Origin: Gammaproteobacteria bacterium
GTDB taxonomy: Bacteria; Pseudomonadota; Gammaproteobacteria; SZUA-152
Length of the DNA: 55,427 bases
Assembly: GCA_021647505.1 (NCBI GenBank)
Contig: JAKIUN010000019.1
Span: 1-55,427, forward strand
Reading direction: 5' to 3'
Numbering within the stretch: position 1 is the first letter of the stretch; each line of letters opens with the position of its first letter. A program made the translations under genes and the position numbers. The notes below the pieces were generated by a model. It made no database searches and was not told the origin of the DNA. It was given only the letters and a program-made list of their open reading frames with translations. Shown here one piece after another: positions 9,046 through 55,302 of the stretch.

Positions 9046-9705
9046 TTAATCGCTTTGATATTTTTGTCTGCGGCGCGAGGCATACAGCGCTATTAATCCC
9101 AGACCCCATAAAGCCAGGCTATTAGATTCTGGGACAGAGATTATTTCAGAAAGTGTTATGTTATCCAGCCAGCCGGTCTCTGAAGAAGTGCCAACAATGG
9201 CAAATGCAAACTCATGCCTACCACTGCAAATATTAGCATATGTACACATACCCGTTAAAAATTCCGATGTCAGCGTTATATTTAATGAGATTCCTGCCAA
9301 GGCATCAGCCACAGAGTTCGCTGTAAACTCCTTGATATAGTCGGCAATGATGAAATTCAAAATGGTGCCTTCTGCACGGATATTGTAAGACTTCGTGATA
9401 TCCAGTTCACCAAATGTTCTGAAGTTTGCACAGCTGGCGCTGCCTCCCCTCCAAACATGGCCAGCGCTACCATCAAGATATGCCGTGTAGTTACCGGATC
9501 CGCCCGTACCAAAATCTCCAGGCGTGGTTACCCCCGTCATTGCCCCGGTGCATCCTATGAATTGACTGGTTCCAGAATCCGGGTTATGGGTTCCCGGTGC
9601 CAGGGTGCCCGCTTCAAAATCACCATTACTTATTAAATTTGCATATGATGAAGCACCTGAAAATATAAGAGCTGAGAATAATAATATCTGGATAAATGTT
9701 TTCAT
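9046..9705 (-). CDS. PEP-CTERM sorting-domain protein
   Basis: This 219-residue exported protein has an N-terminal signal peptide (about residues 1-22, ending near SSYAN), a middle region starting NLISNGDFEAG that resembles a carbohydrate-binding or choice-of-anchor fold, and a C-terminal PEP-CTERM tail: VPES, a hydrophobic helix (LALWGLGLIALY) and a basic end (ASRRRQK). The motif has Ser where most have Pro after VPE. Such proteins are processed by exosortase (EpsH), which is not in this window. The gene stands alone and is more AT-rich than the core genes. Confidence 0.82.
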   Translation of the reverse strand: MKTFIQILLFSALIFSGASSYANLISNGDFEAGTLAPGTHNPDSGTSQFIGCTGAMTGVTTPGDFGTGGSGNYTAYLDGSAGHVWRGGSASCANFRTFGELDITKSYNIRAEGTILNFIIADYIKEFTANSVADALAGISLNITLTSEFLTGMCTYANICSGRHEFAFAIVGTSSETGWLDNITLSEIISVPESNSLALWGLGLIALYASRRRQKYQSD

Positions 9706-15384: not shown

Positions 15385-16548
15385 GTGATGACGTCACAAT
15401 GGAGACGCCTAGCATTGTTCAGGCAAGGTCTAACGTCGCAGCAGCAGTTTGGCGCAGACTTGTCTGGAACGCGTAACGCAATCGAGCATCTTGGTTATGT
15501 GCAAATTGATACGCTATCGGTGGTCGAGCGCGCGCATCACCATGTATTGTGGAACCGAGTGCCGGGTTATGACCCAACCCACTTAAATCAGCTGATCAGC
15601 GAGCAACACATCTTTGAGTATTGGTACCATGCCGCTTCATATCTGCCAATGCGCGACTACCGTTATGCGCTACCGCACATGACGTCGATACGCAATGGTG
15701 AAAACCGCTATTACACCAATGTTGACGAACACCTGATGAGCGAGATATTGGCCCGCGTGGGCGCAGAGGGGGCGTTACGGTTGCGTGATCTCGACAAGGG
15801 GAACAAGGGCAACAAGGGTAATGGTAATTGGTGGAGCATGGGGCGGAGTAAACGCGCCCTCGAAAAGCTGTTTATGCAGGGCGATCTGATGGTGTGCGAA
15901 CGCAATGGCATGGAGAAGGTCTATGACCTCACCGAACGTTGTTTGCCAGAGGGTATCGATCTGAGTGTGCCTACGCTGAGCCAATATGCAGCCTATTTGT
16001 TCGACACCACACTCAGGGCGCACGGTGTTTTCACCTGGAAGCAGCTATTGCACCTAAAAACGGGTAAACCGTTGCGGGACGCGATGCGTAAGGTTCTCGA
16101 CGAGCGTATCGAAGCCGGAGTGGTAAGAGCACTGGATAACGTCGATGCGCCAACTGCCTACGTAGACATCAAGGCACTTGAACAGGAACCGGCAATCGAT
16201 GGCGTACTGAAGGTGCTGTCCCCATTCGATAATGTGGTGATCCACCGTGATCGCTTGAGTACACTGTTCGAATTTGACTACCGGATTGAATGTTATGTCT
16301 CAGCGTCTAAGCGTGTGTTCGGCTATTTTTGTCTGCCAATTCTGTGCGGCGACAAGTTCGTTGGTCGAATCGATTGTAAGGCGCATCGGGCCGACCAACG
16401 TTTTGAAGTTTTAAGTCTGAACCTGGAAGGTGGCACGCTCGATCGAGATCAATTTTTCCCCGCGTTAAGTGGCGAGCTACAAAGGTTCGCCGACTTTAAT
16501 AAATGCCCGTTGCTCGATGCGAGCGTAGTTGCTGCGAAGGGTAAGTAA
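15385..16548 (+). CDS. YcaQ/AlkX-like DNA glycosylase (HTH_42 family)
   Basis: This 387-residue protein belongs to the winged-helix crosslink-repair glycosylase family of E. coli YcaQ. The segment YVQIDTLSVVERAHHHVLWNRV holds a Q-x-D motif, which distinguishes the AlkX/YcaQ type from the QxQ of AlkZ. Other family segments are FEYWYHAASYLPMRDYRY and LSPFDNVVIHRDR. It probably excises alkylated bases and unhooks interstrand crosslinks. A short Lys-Gly-Asn run (about residues 137-148, DNA 15793-15830) comes from near-identical AACAAGGG units. The start is GTG at 15385 or ATG at 15388. It stands alone in an accessory segment. Confidence 0.88.
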   Translation: MMTSQWRRLALFRQGLTSQQQFGADLSGTRNAIEHLGYVQIDTLSVVERAHHHVLWNRVPGYDPTHLNQLISEQHIFEYWYHAASYLPMRDYRYALPHMTSIRNGENRYYTNVDEHLMSEILARVGAEGALRLRDLDKGNKGNKGNGNWWSMGRSKRALEKLFMQGDLMVCERNGMEKVYDLTERCLPEGIDLSVPTLSQYAAYLFDTTLRAHGVFTWKQLLHLKTGKPLRDAMRKVLDERIEAGVVRALDNVDAPTAYVDIKALEQEPAIDGVLKVLSPFDNVVIHRDRLSTLFEFDYRIECYVSASKRVFGYFCLPILCGDKFVGRIDCKAHRADQRFEVLSLNLEGGTLDRDQFFPALSGELQRFADFNKCPLLDASVVAAKGK

Positions 16549-16671
16549 TCAATAGTCGAAAATCGGTGAATTTGAGTAATGGAATATAACACCGCTTTAA
16601 ACTTCCAGACTGTGTACGGTATATGTTAGGTGTGAAAACCACAATTTTTCACATGGAGGTCAAAAGTATTT

Positions 16672-16698
16672 TGTCACACTTCTACGACGAAATGTGTC
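16672..16698 (+). promoter_or_regulatory. Candidate ECF-type promoter upstream of the SnoaL-like gene
   Basis: TGTCACA at 16672-16678 is followed after 16 bases by TGTC at 16695-16698, 57 bases before the ATG. The reported ECF41 signature is TGTCACA-N16-CGTC, so the -35 part and spacing match and the -10 part differs by one base. A small hairpin (TGTGAAAA/TTTTCACA, about 16631-16653) lies upstream. Confidence 0.5.
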
Positions 16699-16755
16699 TA
16701 ATTAAATGAGGCATAGATTATCTCTGTCTTCAAACCAGTTAAAAGGATACTGAGC

Positions 16756-17151
16756 ATGTCGAAACCGAAAGAAGTGGTACAAGCCATGTATGCGGCCTAT
16801 GGCACAGGAAACATGGAGGCACTGAAAAATACTTTATCAGATGATGTCCAATGGATTTATCATGGCACCGATGAGATAGAGCACTCGGGAGTTTACAAAG
16901 GCAAGAAAGGAGTAACAAAGTTTTTTAGTAATGTTAACGAACATGTAGATTATATTGACTTTCAGCCGAGCCAGTTTATTGCTGAAGAAAATATGGTAGT
17001 GGTGTTAGGTAATGAAAAACAAAAAATCAAAAGAAATGGTGAAATGCTGGATCAAGAATGGATTCAAGTATATACAGTTGAGAAAGAACTGATCACGCGT
17101 ATGGAAGAATTTTCAAATACCTCGCATGCTGCAAAGTTACATATGAAATAA
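16756..17151 (+). CDS. SnoaL/NTF2-like fold protein
   Basis: This 131-residue protein has the nuclear-transport-factor-2/ketosteroid-isomerase-like fold: an N-terminal helix VVQAMYAAYGTGNMEALKNT, the strand DDVQWIYHG, the GVYKGKKGVTKFF segment and a closing WIQVYTVEKELITRMEEFSNT. Family members include small enzymes, immunity proteins and the regulatory C-terminal domain of ECF41 sigma factors. No catalytic residue can be assigned with confidence. It is AT-rich compared with accD or hrcA, lies just upstream of an ECF-like sigma factor on the same strand, and has a candidate ECF promoter. The function is unknown. Confidence 0.8.
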   Translation: MSKPKEVVQAMYAAYGTGNMEALKNTLSDDVQWIYHGTDEIEHSGVYKGKKGVTKFFSNVNEHVDYIDFQPSQFIAEENMVVVLGNEKQKIKRNGEMLDQEWIQVYTVEKELITRMEEFSNTSHAAKLHMK

Positions 17152-17164
17152 TATTATAAAGGAT

Positions 17165-17205
17165 CACCACCGTCCTCTTCAATAAGGACGGTAGTGATTA
17201 ATTTT
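17165..17205 (+). terminator. Hairpin between the SnoaL-like and sigma-factor genes
   Basis: CACCACCGTCC pairs with GGACGGTAGTG (one mismatch) around a CTCTTCAATAA loop, followed by ATTAATTTT. It could be a weak terminator or attenuator that lowers read-through into the sigma gene. Confidence 0.5.
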
Positions 17206-17218
17206 GGTGTAATTAATA

Positions 17219-18019
17219 ATGAAAATAGAGTTTCTCGTTAAGCGCGCTATTGAAGGTGATAAAGTAGCGTTGAAGGGTATCATTGAATCAATTCAGGATG
17301 ATGTATATTACTTAGCATTGAGAATGTTAGCTAATCCTGAGGATGCTCAGGATGCAGCACAAGAAATTCTCATCAAAGTTATAACAAACCTTTCTTCCTT
17401 TGAGTTTAAGAGCAAATTTAAAACGTGGGTGTATCGTATTGCAGCTAATTATCTTATTTCAAATAAAAAAATTAAAGATAAAGAGCCCACGTTTGATTCA
17501 TCCAAAGCTGACCTTGAGAGTGACCTGGAGGAGCCTGCTGAGCTCATAAGTTGCCCAGAATATTCAGCTATGCTCAATGAATTACGGATTTTTTGCACTA
17601 TATCTATGCTTATGTGTTTTTCTCCATCCTATAGAATGGTATATATATTAGGGGATATTTTTGAGTTAGAACATCAAGAAGCAAGTCAAATACTTGGCCT
17701 CTCAAAAGACACCTATAGAAAACAACTTTCAAGAGCCAGAATAAAGCTTATAAAATTTATGAGTAGCACTTGTGGTTTAGCAAATGAACATGCAAGTTGT
17801 AGTTGTGAATGGAAATTAAAAGGGGCCATATGTCGAGAGAGGGTAAACCCAAAGTATATAAAATTTTCGGACATAACCAATCCCACATATTCAGAAATTC
17901 AACAAAGAGCTAAAGAAACACAAAAAGAGCTAAAAACAGTAACACTGCAACGCTCAATAACTCATTATAAATACCCTTCTAAATTAAGTGAGTTATTAGA
18001 AGTGTTGATAAATCAGTGA
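17219..18019 (+). CDS. ECF-type RNA polymerase sigma factor with Cys-rich C-terminal extension
   Basis: This 266-residue protein has sigma region 2 at about residues 22-85 (DDVYYLALRMLANPEDAQDAAQEIL and FKTWVYRIAANYLIS) and region 4 at about 125-180 (HQEASQILGLSKDTYRKQLSRARIKL). It is longer than a minimal ECF factor: after region 4 comes a Cys-rich stretch (CGLANEHASCSCEWKLKGA, then another Cys) that may bind metal, and then a helical tail. No anti-sigma gene is adjacent; the SnoaL-like gene upstream is the only linked candidate partner. It is AT-rich relative to the flanking core genes, which suggests acquisition. The promoter target is not known. Confidence 0.85.
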   Translation: MKIEFLVKRAIEGDKVALKGIIESIQDDVYYLALRMLANPEDAQDAAQEILIKVITNLSSFEFKSKFKTWVYRIAANYLISNKKIKDKEPTFDSSKADLESDLEEPAELISCPEYSAMLNELRIFCTISMLMCFSPSYRMVYILGDIFELEHQEASQILGLSKDTYRKQLSRARIKLIKFMSSTCGLANEHASCSCEWKLKGAICRERVNPKYIKFSDITNPTYSEIQQRAKETQKELKTVTLQRSITHYKYPSKLSELLEVLINQ

Positions 18020-18298
18020 AATATATCCTTAAGGAAGTGCCATTCGGGACGGGCCGCGATTAAAATTCTTTGCTGCGCTAATCCAGCATATGTAGGGTGG
18101 GAGGAAGTCAATGCCTCGCAGAACGACGATTTGCCGTTGCCCATGGAGATGTGATGGACGGCTGCTGAGTGGAAAGTTGACAGTAACGTACCTACAACAC
18201 AATACCCCTGTGTCAATAATGGGCTCTTTCAGAAAAACGCCTACGGTTGATGCTGCGGGGTGGTTGAGTGATGAGACTGACTTAGTGAGAAAGGAGAC
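18020..18298. other. Gene-poor gap upstream of hrcA
   Basis: AAGTGCCATTCGGG at 18035-18048 copies the outer arm of the element at 8790-8964. GGGCTCTTTCAGAAAAACG at 18221 faintly resembles an ISL3-type end but has no transposase beside it. No open frame in this stretch looks protein-like. Confidence 0.5.
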
Positions 18299-52728: not shown

Positions 52729-53052
52729 GTGCCTGGAAAATTGTGGTGTTGTGGGCAAGAGGGGGGCGGTCGGGGGGGGCGGGCGATGTGGTTTTCGGGC
52801 TTGGTGCATCCTACGGGCTATGTCTACCGGGGTCTTGGGTTGACATAGTGATTCCTGGAGAATAAGTTCTGAATGAAAATAACAAACAAAATATGCCCAA
52901 ATTGGCCATCAATATCAATATATCAGGGAAAATTGACTTGCCTTCTACGACTATCCGGTAAATTCCCCTGATTTTTTGTTCAATACGGTGGGAGGCAGGG
53001 CAGGAGTGCTTGATACTAATAAGGTAGGCCAGAAAGAGATAGGAGAAATGAA
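52729..53052. other. Gene-poor gap after nuo
   Basis: A G-rich tract at about 52761-52787 (runs of six, eight and three G) could form a quadruplex. Further on, ATCAGGG (52922-52928) pairs with CCCTGAT (52966-52972) ahead of six T bases, a terminator-like shape with a long loop. A TTGACA at 52841 has no clear -10 partner. The minus-strand open frame here is not protein-like. Confidence 0.5.
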
Positions 53053-53265
53053 ATGGCAAAATCGGTAGAAGATGTTGAAAAGGCTGTGGCGCAGTTGCCA
53101 CCAGACCAATTGAAGAAGTTTCGTGCTTGGTACGAAAAGTTTGATTCTGATACGTGGGATGAACAAATTGAAAAAGATATTTCAGCTGGCAAATTAGATG
53201 CCTTGGCTGAGGTGGCAATAGCTGATCATAAAGCAGGAAAAACAAGAAATTGGCAGTCGAAATAG
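53053..53265 (+). CDS. Antitoxin-like protein (orphan)
   Basis: This 70-residue acidic protein resembles the small antitoxin family with a VEKAVAQLPPDQLKKFRAWY start, an FDSDTWDEQIEKDISAGKLD core and an LAEVAIADHKAGKTR end, normally encoded ahead of a RelE/ParE-like toxin. A good AGGAG site precedes the ATG. The last residues (NWQSK) are read across a probable deletion joint into toxin sequence, because the toxin's C-terminus appears immediately afterwards in another frame. It may still fold, but no complete toxin partner remains here. Confidence 0.72.
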   Translation: MAKSVEDVEKAVAQLPPDQLKKFRAWYEKFDSDTWDEQIEKDISAGKLDALAEVAIADHKAGKTRNWQSK

Positions 53266-53330
53266 AAAATGGTTTTCTTTGGTTCTGGATTGGAAGCCAT
53301 GCTGAATATGACAAGCTCATCAAGCCATAA
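53253..53330 (+). pseudogene. RelE/ParE-type toxin, C-terminal remnant
   Basis: In the frame from 53253 to the stop at 53328-53330 the translation reads AVEIENGFLWFWIGSHAEYD then KLIKP. The FWIGSHxEYDxL ending is characteristic of the toxin that pairs with the antitoxin family just upstream. Only about 25 codons survive, with no start, so most of the toxin gene is deleted. Confidence 0.65.
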
Positions 53331-53395
53331 CTAGGCGCTTCACCTGGCTGATTTTTCGCTGCGCTCAAAATCAGTGGGTGAGCTTGGTCATTAGC
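53328..53395. repeat. attC-like imperfect palindrome
   Basis: Complementary outer arms TAACTAGGCGCTTCACC (53328-53344) and GGTGAGCTTGGTCATTAG (53377-53394) enclose CTGATTTT/AAAATCAG (53348-53355, 53367-53374) and a GC-rich loop. Size, layout and position right at the 3' end of a toxin-antitoxin unit fit an integron attC site. The two core sites (TAAC and ATTAGC rather than GTTRRRY) are degenerate, and no integrase is seen. Confidence 0.45.
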
Positions 53396-53442
53396 GCGCC
53401 GCGAAGCGGGGCGCATCTGGTCGGGTGCAAGCTTTTCAGGAT

Positions 53443-53465
53443 GTTACAATGCGAGAACTGACCCC
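53443..53465. repeat. Left copy of a perfect 23-bp inverted repeat, with tandem 20-bp units
   Basis: The 23-mer beginning GTTACAATGCGAGAAC and ending CTGACCCC is the exact complement of 54296-54318. The 20-base unit GAGAACTGACCCCATTCTCC occurs twice in tandem (53453-53472 and 53473-53492), followed by decaying ATTCTCC units to about 53523. Confidence 0.85.
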
Positions 53466-53544
53466 ATTCTCCGAGAACTGACCCCATTCTCCCCATTCTC
53501 CCATTACATTCTCCGCATTCTCCGCAAAAACATTAAAATCAAGG

Positions 53545-53568
53545 CCACCGTCTAAAGACGGTGGTTTT
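53545..53568 (+). terminator. Hairpin upstream of the unknown gene
   Basis: CCACCGTCT pairs perfectly with AGACGGTGG around two A bases, followed by TTTT. It resembles a terminator or the hairpin marks of IS200/REP-type elements. Confidence 0.6.
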
Positions 53569-53594
53569 AACCAAATTAATGGAAAATAAAGGTC

Positions 53595-54140
53595 ATGGAA
53601 ATAATACTTACATCAATATTAACTTCGACAGTTGTTGTTGGAATAATTGTCTCCCTTTTTAAGGAAAGTATCAAGGCGAAATTTAATATAATCATTAAAG
53701 ATATTGATTCAATAAAAAGCTTTCAATCAAAAGACTTTGATCATGCAAGTCAGTCTATAAAAAATATTTGGAATCAATTAGCTAATATAGATGATTATTT
53801 AAGGCATGGGTTACCGCAAGACATTCAAAAAAACCAGATGGACAATAATTCTTTAAGGCAACATTTATTGGAAATACAAAAAGAAATGGTATTATTGCCC
53901 AATAATATTTATGAAAGCACTGAAAACAGTCTAAATATAATGTCCGGTATATGGGCGAAAGCAATGAAAAATATATCTACGTTATCCCATGATAGAAAAA
54001 CTGGAATCAAATCAGAAGAAGAATGTATTGGTTTAGCTAATAATTATTTATCTGAGTTAAGCGAAAGCTACAATAAAGAGGTTTCGCAGTTAAGGATAAT
54101 ATACCGCTCATATATTGAAAGCCATATAAAAATTAGTTAA
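53595..54140 (+). CDS. Hypothetical membrane-anchored protein
   Basis: This 181-residue protein matches no family I recognise. An N-terminal hydrophobic segment (ILTSILTSTVVVGIIVSLF, residues 4-22) is followed by a Lys-rich segment and long, probably coiled-coil helices (for example NNSLRQHLLEIQKEMVLLP and residues 145-180). It is likely anchored in the inner membrane with a cytoplasmic helical body. Base composition is very AT-rich against the core genes, which suggests transfer. An AAAGG site precedes the ATG. It lies between the two arms of the 23-bp inverted repeat. Confidence 0.65.
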   Translation: MEIILTSILTSTVVVGIIVSLFKESIKAKFNIIIKDIDSIKSFQSKDFDHASQSIKNIWNQLANIDDYLRHGLPQDIQKNQMDNNSLRQHLLEIQKEMVLLPNNIYESTENSLNIMSGIWAKAMKNISTLSHDRKTGIKSEEECIGLANNYLSELSESYNKEVSQLRIIYRSYIESHIKIS

Positions 54141-54202
54141 AGCAATGAGCGTGGTCTGTCCCCTATTGTCACTATTGTCACGCGGAAACGAGTGTAACCG
54201 AG

Positions 54203-54236
54203 GAGCCCCGTGAGGGAGAACTTCATGCGGGGATTT
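54203..54236 (+). ncRNA. Group II intron domain V (second type), remnant
   Basis: This is a 34-base hairpin. GAGCCCCG (54203-54210) pairs with the CGGGGATTT region (54228-54236) with one G-A opposition; a 2-base bulge (54226-54227) follows; then 54211-54215 pairs with 5421-style partner positions 54221-54225, capped by GAGAA (54216-54220). The GGATTTGTGCG after it resembles the GGATCTGTG that follows domain V in one class of bacterial group II introns. No intron protein or normal domain VI follows, so it is a remnant. Confidence 0.6.
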
Positions 54237-54274
54237 GTGCGAAAGCAAGAAGGCAAGAAGGGGGTCAGTTCTTA

Positions 54275-54299
54275 GGGGGGGGGTAAGGGGGGTAAGGGG
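54275..54299 (+). other. G-run tract with quadruplex potential
   Basis: Nine G, TAA, six G, TAA and four G occur in sequence just before the right copy of the 23-bp repeat. It could form a G-quadruplex and is also a place where sequencing may miscount bases. Confidence 0.6.
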
Positions 54300-54318
54300 T
54301 CAGTTCTCGCATTGTAAC
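54296..54318. repeat. Right copy of the perfect 23-bp inverted repeat
   Basis: It is the exact reverse complement of 53443-53465. A shorter copy of its GGGGTCAGTTCT core is at 54261-54272, and GGGGTCAGG-like cores recur at 54734 and 54910. This fits REP sequences linked to RAYT transposases. Confidence 0.85.
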
Positions 54319-54379
54319 ATTCCCGAGAAGAGGAGGGGGCAGGTCTCGCCTTTTGTCATGCATAGACTAAACTTTGAGC

Positions 54380-54670
54380 ATGGCAAGGGCACTAAGAATC
54401 GAATATCAAGGAGCGCTTTACCATGTACCCTTCAGAAGGAATGGATGTGATGATATCTACCCCATCGATCCAGGAGATTATATGAGTTATACTATTGAAG
54501 TTGAAAGAGAAATTTCGAAAGGCACAGGTACGCTTACCTATAAGCACGGTGCTGTTTCTGTAAGTACAACTTGCTGGTTCGAATTAGTGAACCCTATACC
54601 AGCAAAGAAATATATTGGTTGCTCTGCTACTCATATGCAGAAAGATAAAGGGGTCAAAGCCCTTAAATAA
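54380..54670 (+). pseudogene. RAYT (REP-associated tyrosine transposase) N-terminal fragment joined to unknown sequence
   Basis: The frame begins MARALRIEYQGALYHVPFRR and continues NGCDDIY, which matches the first 27 residues of Y1-type RAYT transposases. After that the match stops: the HUH and catalytic Tyr parts are absent. The next 70 residues (MSYTIEVEREISKGTGTL and on) look like a different small protein of unknown kind, which could start at the ATG near 54482. It probably results from deletion or recombination. Confidence 0.65.
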
Positions 54671-54686
54671 TGTTTTCAAGAGTCAA

Positions 54687-54722
54687 TAGCGCGGTAGGTT
54701 GGGGTGAGGGACGAACCCCAAC
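54687..54722. repeat. Short dispersed hairpin repeat (copy 2)
   Basis: GTAGGTTGGGGTGAG and GAACCCCAAC recur as at 7951-7985. The remaining stretch to 55302 is AT-rich, with GGGGTCAGG-type motifs at 54734 and 54910, and I see no convincing gene in it. Confidence 0.75.
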
Positions 54723-55302
54723 ATTATTATCACATGGGGAAAAGGGGTCAGGAAAAAAGAGTCAGGTCTTTGATTTATGATCGCGGCTCCGATAAACTTT
54801 AGATTCCTGAGGGTTTCACAAGACACGGCCATGATCCACTCGATAAGACTGGAATTCCCTGGAGCACTTTGCCTCGAAACTGGATGGCGACCAAGATCTG
54901 AGAGAAGTGAGGGGTCAGGTCTATAACCGAAGCATTACCTATGCTAATTTGTATGAATGGCTTAGGAAAGGGTAACGTCCCCTTTTTTTCTTTTCGCCAT
55001 TTTTTCGGAGAGTTATCTCTCTTATTGATTAAATATAAAAGTCGGATGAAAGGAAGTCTGTGATACACAAATATACCGATATAATAGGTATAAAAAATAG
55101 CGAATATTTTATGAAGAAATTAGCACTAATATCATTTTTATTTTTTATTCAGGATTGTGTTTTTCAAAAGACTCCATCAATCTAGTTCTTCTTCCAGACC
55201 TAATATAAGTTCCATCAATTGGTGTTGAGACGGCGATTACAGAAAATAGCACTGTAGGAATTATTGGTCGAAGTAGTTGCAAATCAGATCGTCCGACTTA
55301 TG

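Follow-up and report, generated by a model that had tools for sequence, protein, structure and literature searches.

Does a free SnoaL-fold protein encoded beside an ECF-like sigma factor represent a two-gene form of the control that ECF41 sigma factors carry within one protein? The question is raised by a small locus in the window (the whole 55,427-nucleotide stretch of DNA analyzed here), in which a first-pass annotation saw a free SnoaL-fold gene directly upstream of a sigma factor gene, an ECF41-like promoter, no neighbouring anti-sigma gene and an AT-rich composition indicative of transfer. Our results suggest that the SnoaL protein is, most likely, made as the operon's output and not as a regulatory subunit, and that the striking part of the locus is the sigma family together with its promoter, rather than a split SnoaL regulator. 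The elements of the locus are as follows.

16672–16678, plus strand: –35 element TGTCACA (pattern match; TGTCACA or GGTCACA stands at the same place before 19 of 22 related operons).
16695–16701, plus strand: –10 element TGTC extended by TAA (TGTCTAA); GTC-(T/C)AA is invariant in 12 aligned promoters with an N16 spacer.
16756–17151, plus strand: gene P0001 for a SnoaL_2/NTF2-like protein of 131 aa (Pfam SnoaL_2, E 6.7e-14), with no export signal by eye; predicted operon product.
17163–17198, plus strand: intergenic hairpin, an inverted repeat with 14-nt arms and an 8-nt loop (MFE –24 kcal/mol, z –5.2), with a weak T tract on the plus strand.
17219–18019, plus strand: gene P0002 for an ECF-like sigma factor of 266 aa with a C-terminal extension (Pfam/NCBIfam; member of a 22-member clade).
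17594–17617, plus strand: C126-x6-C133, a pair of cysteines where sigma region 4 begins, invariant in a 17-sequence, four-phylum alignment.
17756–18016, plus strand: the C-terminal extension, residues 180–266, with C185, C194 and C196 (CGL...CxC), defined from alignments; not a SnoaL domain.

The basic gene arrangement was found as first described. P0001 consists of a complete SnoaL_2 domain and lies directly 5' of P0002, in which Pfam recognizes Sigma70_r2 at residues 22–81 (6.3e-14) and Sigma70_r4_2 at residues 135–177 (1.4e-8). With regions 2 and 4 only and region 3 absent, P0002 has the general make-up of an ECF sigma factor, and it scores 76 bits against the NCBIfam sigma70-ECF model (cutoff 42.9). 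The pair is flanked on one side by a gene that we read from its sequence as YcaQ-like (15385–16548) and on the other by hrcA, and no anti-sigma gene adjoins it. A search against a defence-system library gave 0 matches.

The suggestion of transfer was also upheld. The GC content is 37% in the SnoaL gene and 35% in the sigma gene, versus 55% for the window. In four species of the same genus similarity to the window starts at 18290, just before hrcA, and the SnoaL–sigma stretch has no match. The sigma family is patchily distributed: the 6 further genomes of the genus lack it, whereas 3 of 17 other genomes of the taxonomic family have it; profile searches recovered it from 6 of 369 genomes of the same class (at E 1e-40), from 8 of 397 genomes of the phylum and from 3 of 289 genomes of the class of G722. 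Furthermore, the closest relative of P0002 (L034, 59% identical) comes from another class. The low GC, the patchy distribution, the absence from same-genus genomes and a closest relative in another class together support horizontal acquisition of the operon. In another genome of the genus (L063, 13–640), the place upstream of hrcA holds two adjacent small genes resembling a HigB/HigA-type toxin-antitoxin pair, and this different gene pair suggests that the insertion site may be a variable spot. Elsewhere in the window, an AT-rich patch at 9046–9705 on the minus strand (44% GC) encodes a secreted protein with a PEP-CTERM-like tail (VPESNSLALWGLGLIALYASRRRQ), the stretch at 53001–55000 is AT-rich (38–44% GC) and carries short ORFs without an assigned kind, and the very start (33–119) matches an Rfam group II intron with 65.7 bits.

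The sigma factor had been described as one that lacks the SnoaL domain of ECF41. Pfam indeed finds no SnoaL domain in P0002, yet this description missed that the protein has a different extension of its own, 87 residues past region 4 (~85 residues across the clade), and falls outside the ECF41 branch. In a phylogenetic tree, its 22 relatives form one clade (97/96 support) apart from other ECFs and from two Paenibacillus ECF41 controls, true ECF41 proteins that were the sole finds of a single-sequence scan of genome contigs and that alone represent ECF41 in a tree with several weak deep branches. The clade spans Pseudomonadota, Spirochaetota, Bacillota and Bacteroidota; the 22 loci are a sample of the family that includes several close relatives and that draws on plasmid records for every member outside Pseudomonadota. 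By tblastn the family was found in 20 plasmid records (Leptospira, Enterococcus raffinosus, Runella), and no members were found in viral contigs and phage records. Literature on ECF287/288/238, and on SRPBCC or glyoxalase with ECF factors, does not describe the clade, which may already be a numbered ECF group in the classification of Casas-Pastor et al. (2021). A 301 aa sigma factor of Leptospira, LIC_10225, is unclassified (PMC12655853) and, judged by its length, may be a member; we offer it as a lead.

The clade shares five cysteines. All five are invariant in 17 aligned relatives from the four phyla, in an alignment with only 21 invariant columns in total, and by inspection the pattern C-x6-C ... 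CG(L/I/V)...CxC is present in 22 of 22 collected clade members. Judging from this conservation, the five cysteines are likely to form a metal or redox/electrophile switch, in which they would act as sensors, and the activity of the clade is probably set within the protein by the cysteine-bearing extension and not by an anti-sigma factor.

We then asked whether the promoter belongs to this sigma factor. In ECF41 (Ecf41Bli, Ecf41Rsp and M. tuberculosis SigJ) the promoter consists of a –35 element TGTCACA, a spacer of 16 ± 1 and a –10 element CGTC; TGTCACA has been described as ECF41-specific, and ECF41 mainly serves its own local target (PMC3426412). The promoter reported by the first-pass annotation stands exactly where it was placed, and TGTCACA-N16-TGTC at 16672–16698 differs from the ECF41 motif in one base, TGTC for CGTC. 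Since ECF41 genome sites include TGTC and TGTT at –10 (PMC3426412), CGTC is a weak criterion for membership. A match to TGTCACA-N15..17-NGTC is expected 0.25 times by chance in the window, and the 15 window matches with ≤2 mismatches to the motif are at chance level. The motif in the window alone thus carries little weight, and it is conservation across relatives that makes a strong case for this candidate promoter. The motif was indeed present upstream of orthologues: [T/G]GTCACA-N15/16-NGTC lies ≤200 bp from the first operon gene in 19 of 22 loci, with 0.015 expected from first-order Markov shuffles.

The family motif is usually trailed by TAA, and GTCACA and GTC(T/C)AA are common to 12 of 12 aligned N16 promoters. 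In the plasmid of Enterococcus raffinosus the promoter reads TGTCACACTTATCCTCTTCGTTTGTC-TAA, and in a Leptospira plasmid a weaker TGTCACAGTTGCTTTTTTAAAGCATCTA precedes the gene upstream of sigma. At genome scale, TGTCACAC-N16-GTCTAA has only one match in the window's own genome, at the operon. Across eight sigma-bearing genomes, all six exact matches are at the operon, versus seven scattered matches for a reversed control pattern; with ≤1 mismatch the sigma operon is matched in seven of the eight, with 1 match elsewhere across all of them. The promoter tracks the operon start whichever gene is first (GST, SRPBCC, SnoaL or sigma itself). Locus L043 has no recognizable promoter, and L039 and L041 have no copy ≤200 bp from the sigma gene; the partner gene itself is immediately preceded by a copy in L032 (the glyoxalase gene) and in L039 (a downstream gene). 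The ECF41-like promoter therefore very probably belongs to P0002, and the natural reading of its conservation is that P0002 recognizes the motif at 16672 and acts mainly on the operon that encodes it. A perfect 8-bp inverted repeat, TGTGAAAA-N7-TTTTCACA, lies a short way 5' of the –35 element, at 16631–16653; it could be an operator, yet is compatible with chance; no similar repeat was seen by eye upstream of L005.

What is not conserved is the partner. The SnoaL/sigma pair as such does not recur elsewhere, and the small gene is swapped between close relatives. The best-supported subclade (9 rows, 100/100) contains the window, L034, L005 and six further loci (L030, L035–L038 and L061). Upstream of sigma, L034 carries an SRPBCC-like gene (assigned by resemblance, with no Pfam match) and L005 a glutathione S-transferase (GST) gene (Pfam), and the six loci have a SnoaL_2/DUF4440 gene (Pfam) downstream of sigma whose product begins, by eye, with an apparent signal peptide. 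Further out, SRPBCC partners occur in L028, in L029 (below the Pfam cut-off) and in L006–L008 (by resemblance), with the partner and sigma genes overlapping by 8 bp in L006 and L007 and by more in L008. Other partners are glyoxalase (L032, L062), 4HBT thioesterase (L040) and DUF2461 (L042); CMD is found only in the distant relatives L031 and L032. Co-occurrence of the two genes in other genomes was thus not borne out, the partner being exchanged in sisters and the recurrent SnoaL-fold partners lying downstream with an apparent export signal. Because relatives keep the promoter and sigma but swap the small gene, the SnoaL protein looks like a product that is switched on, not like half of a split regulator.

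P0001 itself points the same way in its relationships. It is 33–38% identical to stand-alone NTF2-like proteins located in other settings, its relatives are found away from P0002-type sigma genes, and its nearest solved relatives are uncharacterized stand-alone NTF2-like proteins and TerC. On a Chroococcidiopsis plasmid (L068, 3040–4296), a longer gene annotated as an RNA polymerase sigma factor is found two genes away from a P0001 relative. Single-sequence structure models of P0001 and P0002 reached a pLDDT of only 39–40 and gave no usable fold. We infer that the SnoaL protein acts as an enzyme or small-molecule binder.

We consider it probable that the locus arrived by horizontal transfer and works as an autoregulated operon of two genes, whose cysteine-bearing sigma factor activates its own expression and that of a single small-molecule-handling protein open to exchange. 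Through the cysteine-bearing extension, a metal, oxidant or electrophile would set the sigma factor to its inactive or active state, and the active form would direct RNA polymerase to TGTCACA-N16-TGTCTAA (16672–16701) upstream of its own operon. Transcription from there would raise both the sigma factor and the SnoaL protein, and the latter would act on or bind a small molecule, in a slot that relatives fill with other proteins. As for the intergenic hairpin, it could keep sigma expression below that of SnoaL, or protect the upstream message. A hairpin of like strength (z –4.3) and unrelated sequence lies at the same intergenic place in L034; as a general family feature the hairpin was rejected, since of the seven operons folded the five others had none. 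The observations beneath this reading are the gene content, the conservation of the promoter, its single-site targeting in genomes, the conservation of the cysteines, the exchange of partners and the patchy distribution.

The control envisaged in the first-pass annotation, in which the free SnoaL protein would bind the sigma factor and inhibit or aid it in a ligand-dependent manner, as the fused ECF41 domain does, appears unlikely to us. It can draw on a –35 motif identical to that of ECF41 (PMC3426412), on a SnoaL gene directly 5' in the same operon with no anti-sigma gene, and on the recurrence of SnoaL-fold partners within the same subclade. However, the nearest sisters have SRPBCC or GST in place of SnoaL, and export of the recurring SnoaL/DUF4440 partners, as their apparent signal peptides suggest, would make contact with a cytoplasmic sigma factor impossible. 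P0001 scores 76 bits against one stand-alone NTF2-like protein versus ≤7.6 bits against ECF41 SnoaL domains, and the sigma factor, with an extension of its own, stands outside the ECF41 branch. With a partner that is not conserved and that resembles stand-alone NTF2-like proteins more than ECF41 SnoaL domains, ECF41 control divided between two genes is not supported.

A related alternative keeps the partners in a sensory role. SnoaL and SRPBCC folds form pockets that bind ligands, and with their genes lying 5' of the sigma gene they could also serve as sensors; each would then be an interchangeable receptor that captures a compound and signals to the conserved extension, with the sigma family as the hub. 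The conservation of the extension despite the variety of partners would fit, as would the frequency of pocketed folds encoded just 5' and the gene overlaps in L006, L007 and L008. We nonetheless hold this to be improbable, because elsewhere in the family the partner is a plain enzyme or an exported protein (GST, CMD, 4HBT thioesterase, glyoxalase) and because the partners in L032 and L039 have their own promoter copy and behave like targets. Very unlikely, in our judgement, is that SnoaL and sigma are unrelated genes that share an AT-rich insertion under separate control. A strong hairpin between them could end transcription, the exact pair was found in no other genome sampled, and the different gene pair of L063 makes the site look variable; against this, the SnoaL gene follows the promoter of the sigma family, and promoter, small gene, hairpin and sigma are arranged alike in the sister operon L034. 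A further conjecture, which we rate as quite unlikely, takes the clade for an ECF group not yet described, one that recognizes the –35 element of ECF41 and switches a single exchangeable gene. Its free SnoaL neighbours would then represent an origin stage of sigma factors with a fused SnoaL domain, ECF41 among them, and here the free SnoaL would still modulate sigma.

An ECF41-type –35 element precedes operons of sigma factors that have another extension and five invariant cysteines, in Pseudomonadota and Bacillota and, as a near match, in Spirochaetota. Were this shared element used by the sigma factor, promoter recognition and sensing module would be separable. Each operon would then amount to a simple switch with one sigma factor and one target, and its signal could be sought among metals, oxidants and electrophiles.

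Several known systems share parts of this design. ECF42 has a C-terminal TPR extension and a YCII-type target gene (PMC8999054); like P0002 it pairs an extended sigma factor with a nearby small protein gene, and the TPR extension and YCII-type target family are not found at the P0002 locus. ECF56, ECF205, ECF294 and ECF295 carry a fused SnoaL_2 domain, with SigG1 having an anti-sigma protein as well (PMC7730460); they too link an ECF-type sigma factor to a SnoaL fold, which is fused there and a separate, exchangeable gene here. In CorE-like factors (ECF44, now ECF238), a CxC in the region 2–4 linker is combined with a metal-sensing Cys-rich C-terminal domain (PMC8999054). Cysteines in a C-terminal extension and nearer the core, possibly forming a joint on-board sensor, are shared with P0002, whereas in P0002 the C-x6-C stands where region 4 begins, the CxC follows region 4, the linker has no CxC, and the extension, with three invariant cysteines, falls short of a full CorE-type Cys-rich domain.

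ECF41 itself shares with the P0002 operon the –35 element TGTCACA with its 16 ± 1 spacer (T or G first in 19 of 22 loci), the lack of an anti-sigma gene with the regulator lying within the sigma protein (as proposed for P0002), and a local small-gene target by or with the sigma gene. It differs in its fused SnoaL extension, as opposed to a cysteine-bearing one without SnoaL, in its –10 element (CGTC, versus TGTC in the window and NGTC(T/C)AA in the P0002 family) and in its separate clade in the tree. The targets differ as well: those of ECF41 are CMD, oxidoreductase or epimerase genes, whereas the partners of the P0002 family form a wider and different set, represented in the window by SnoaL.
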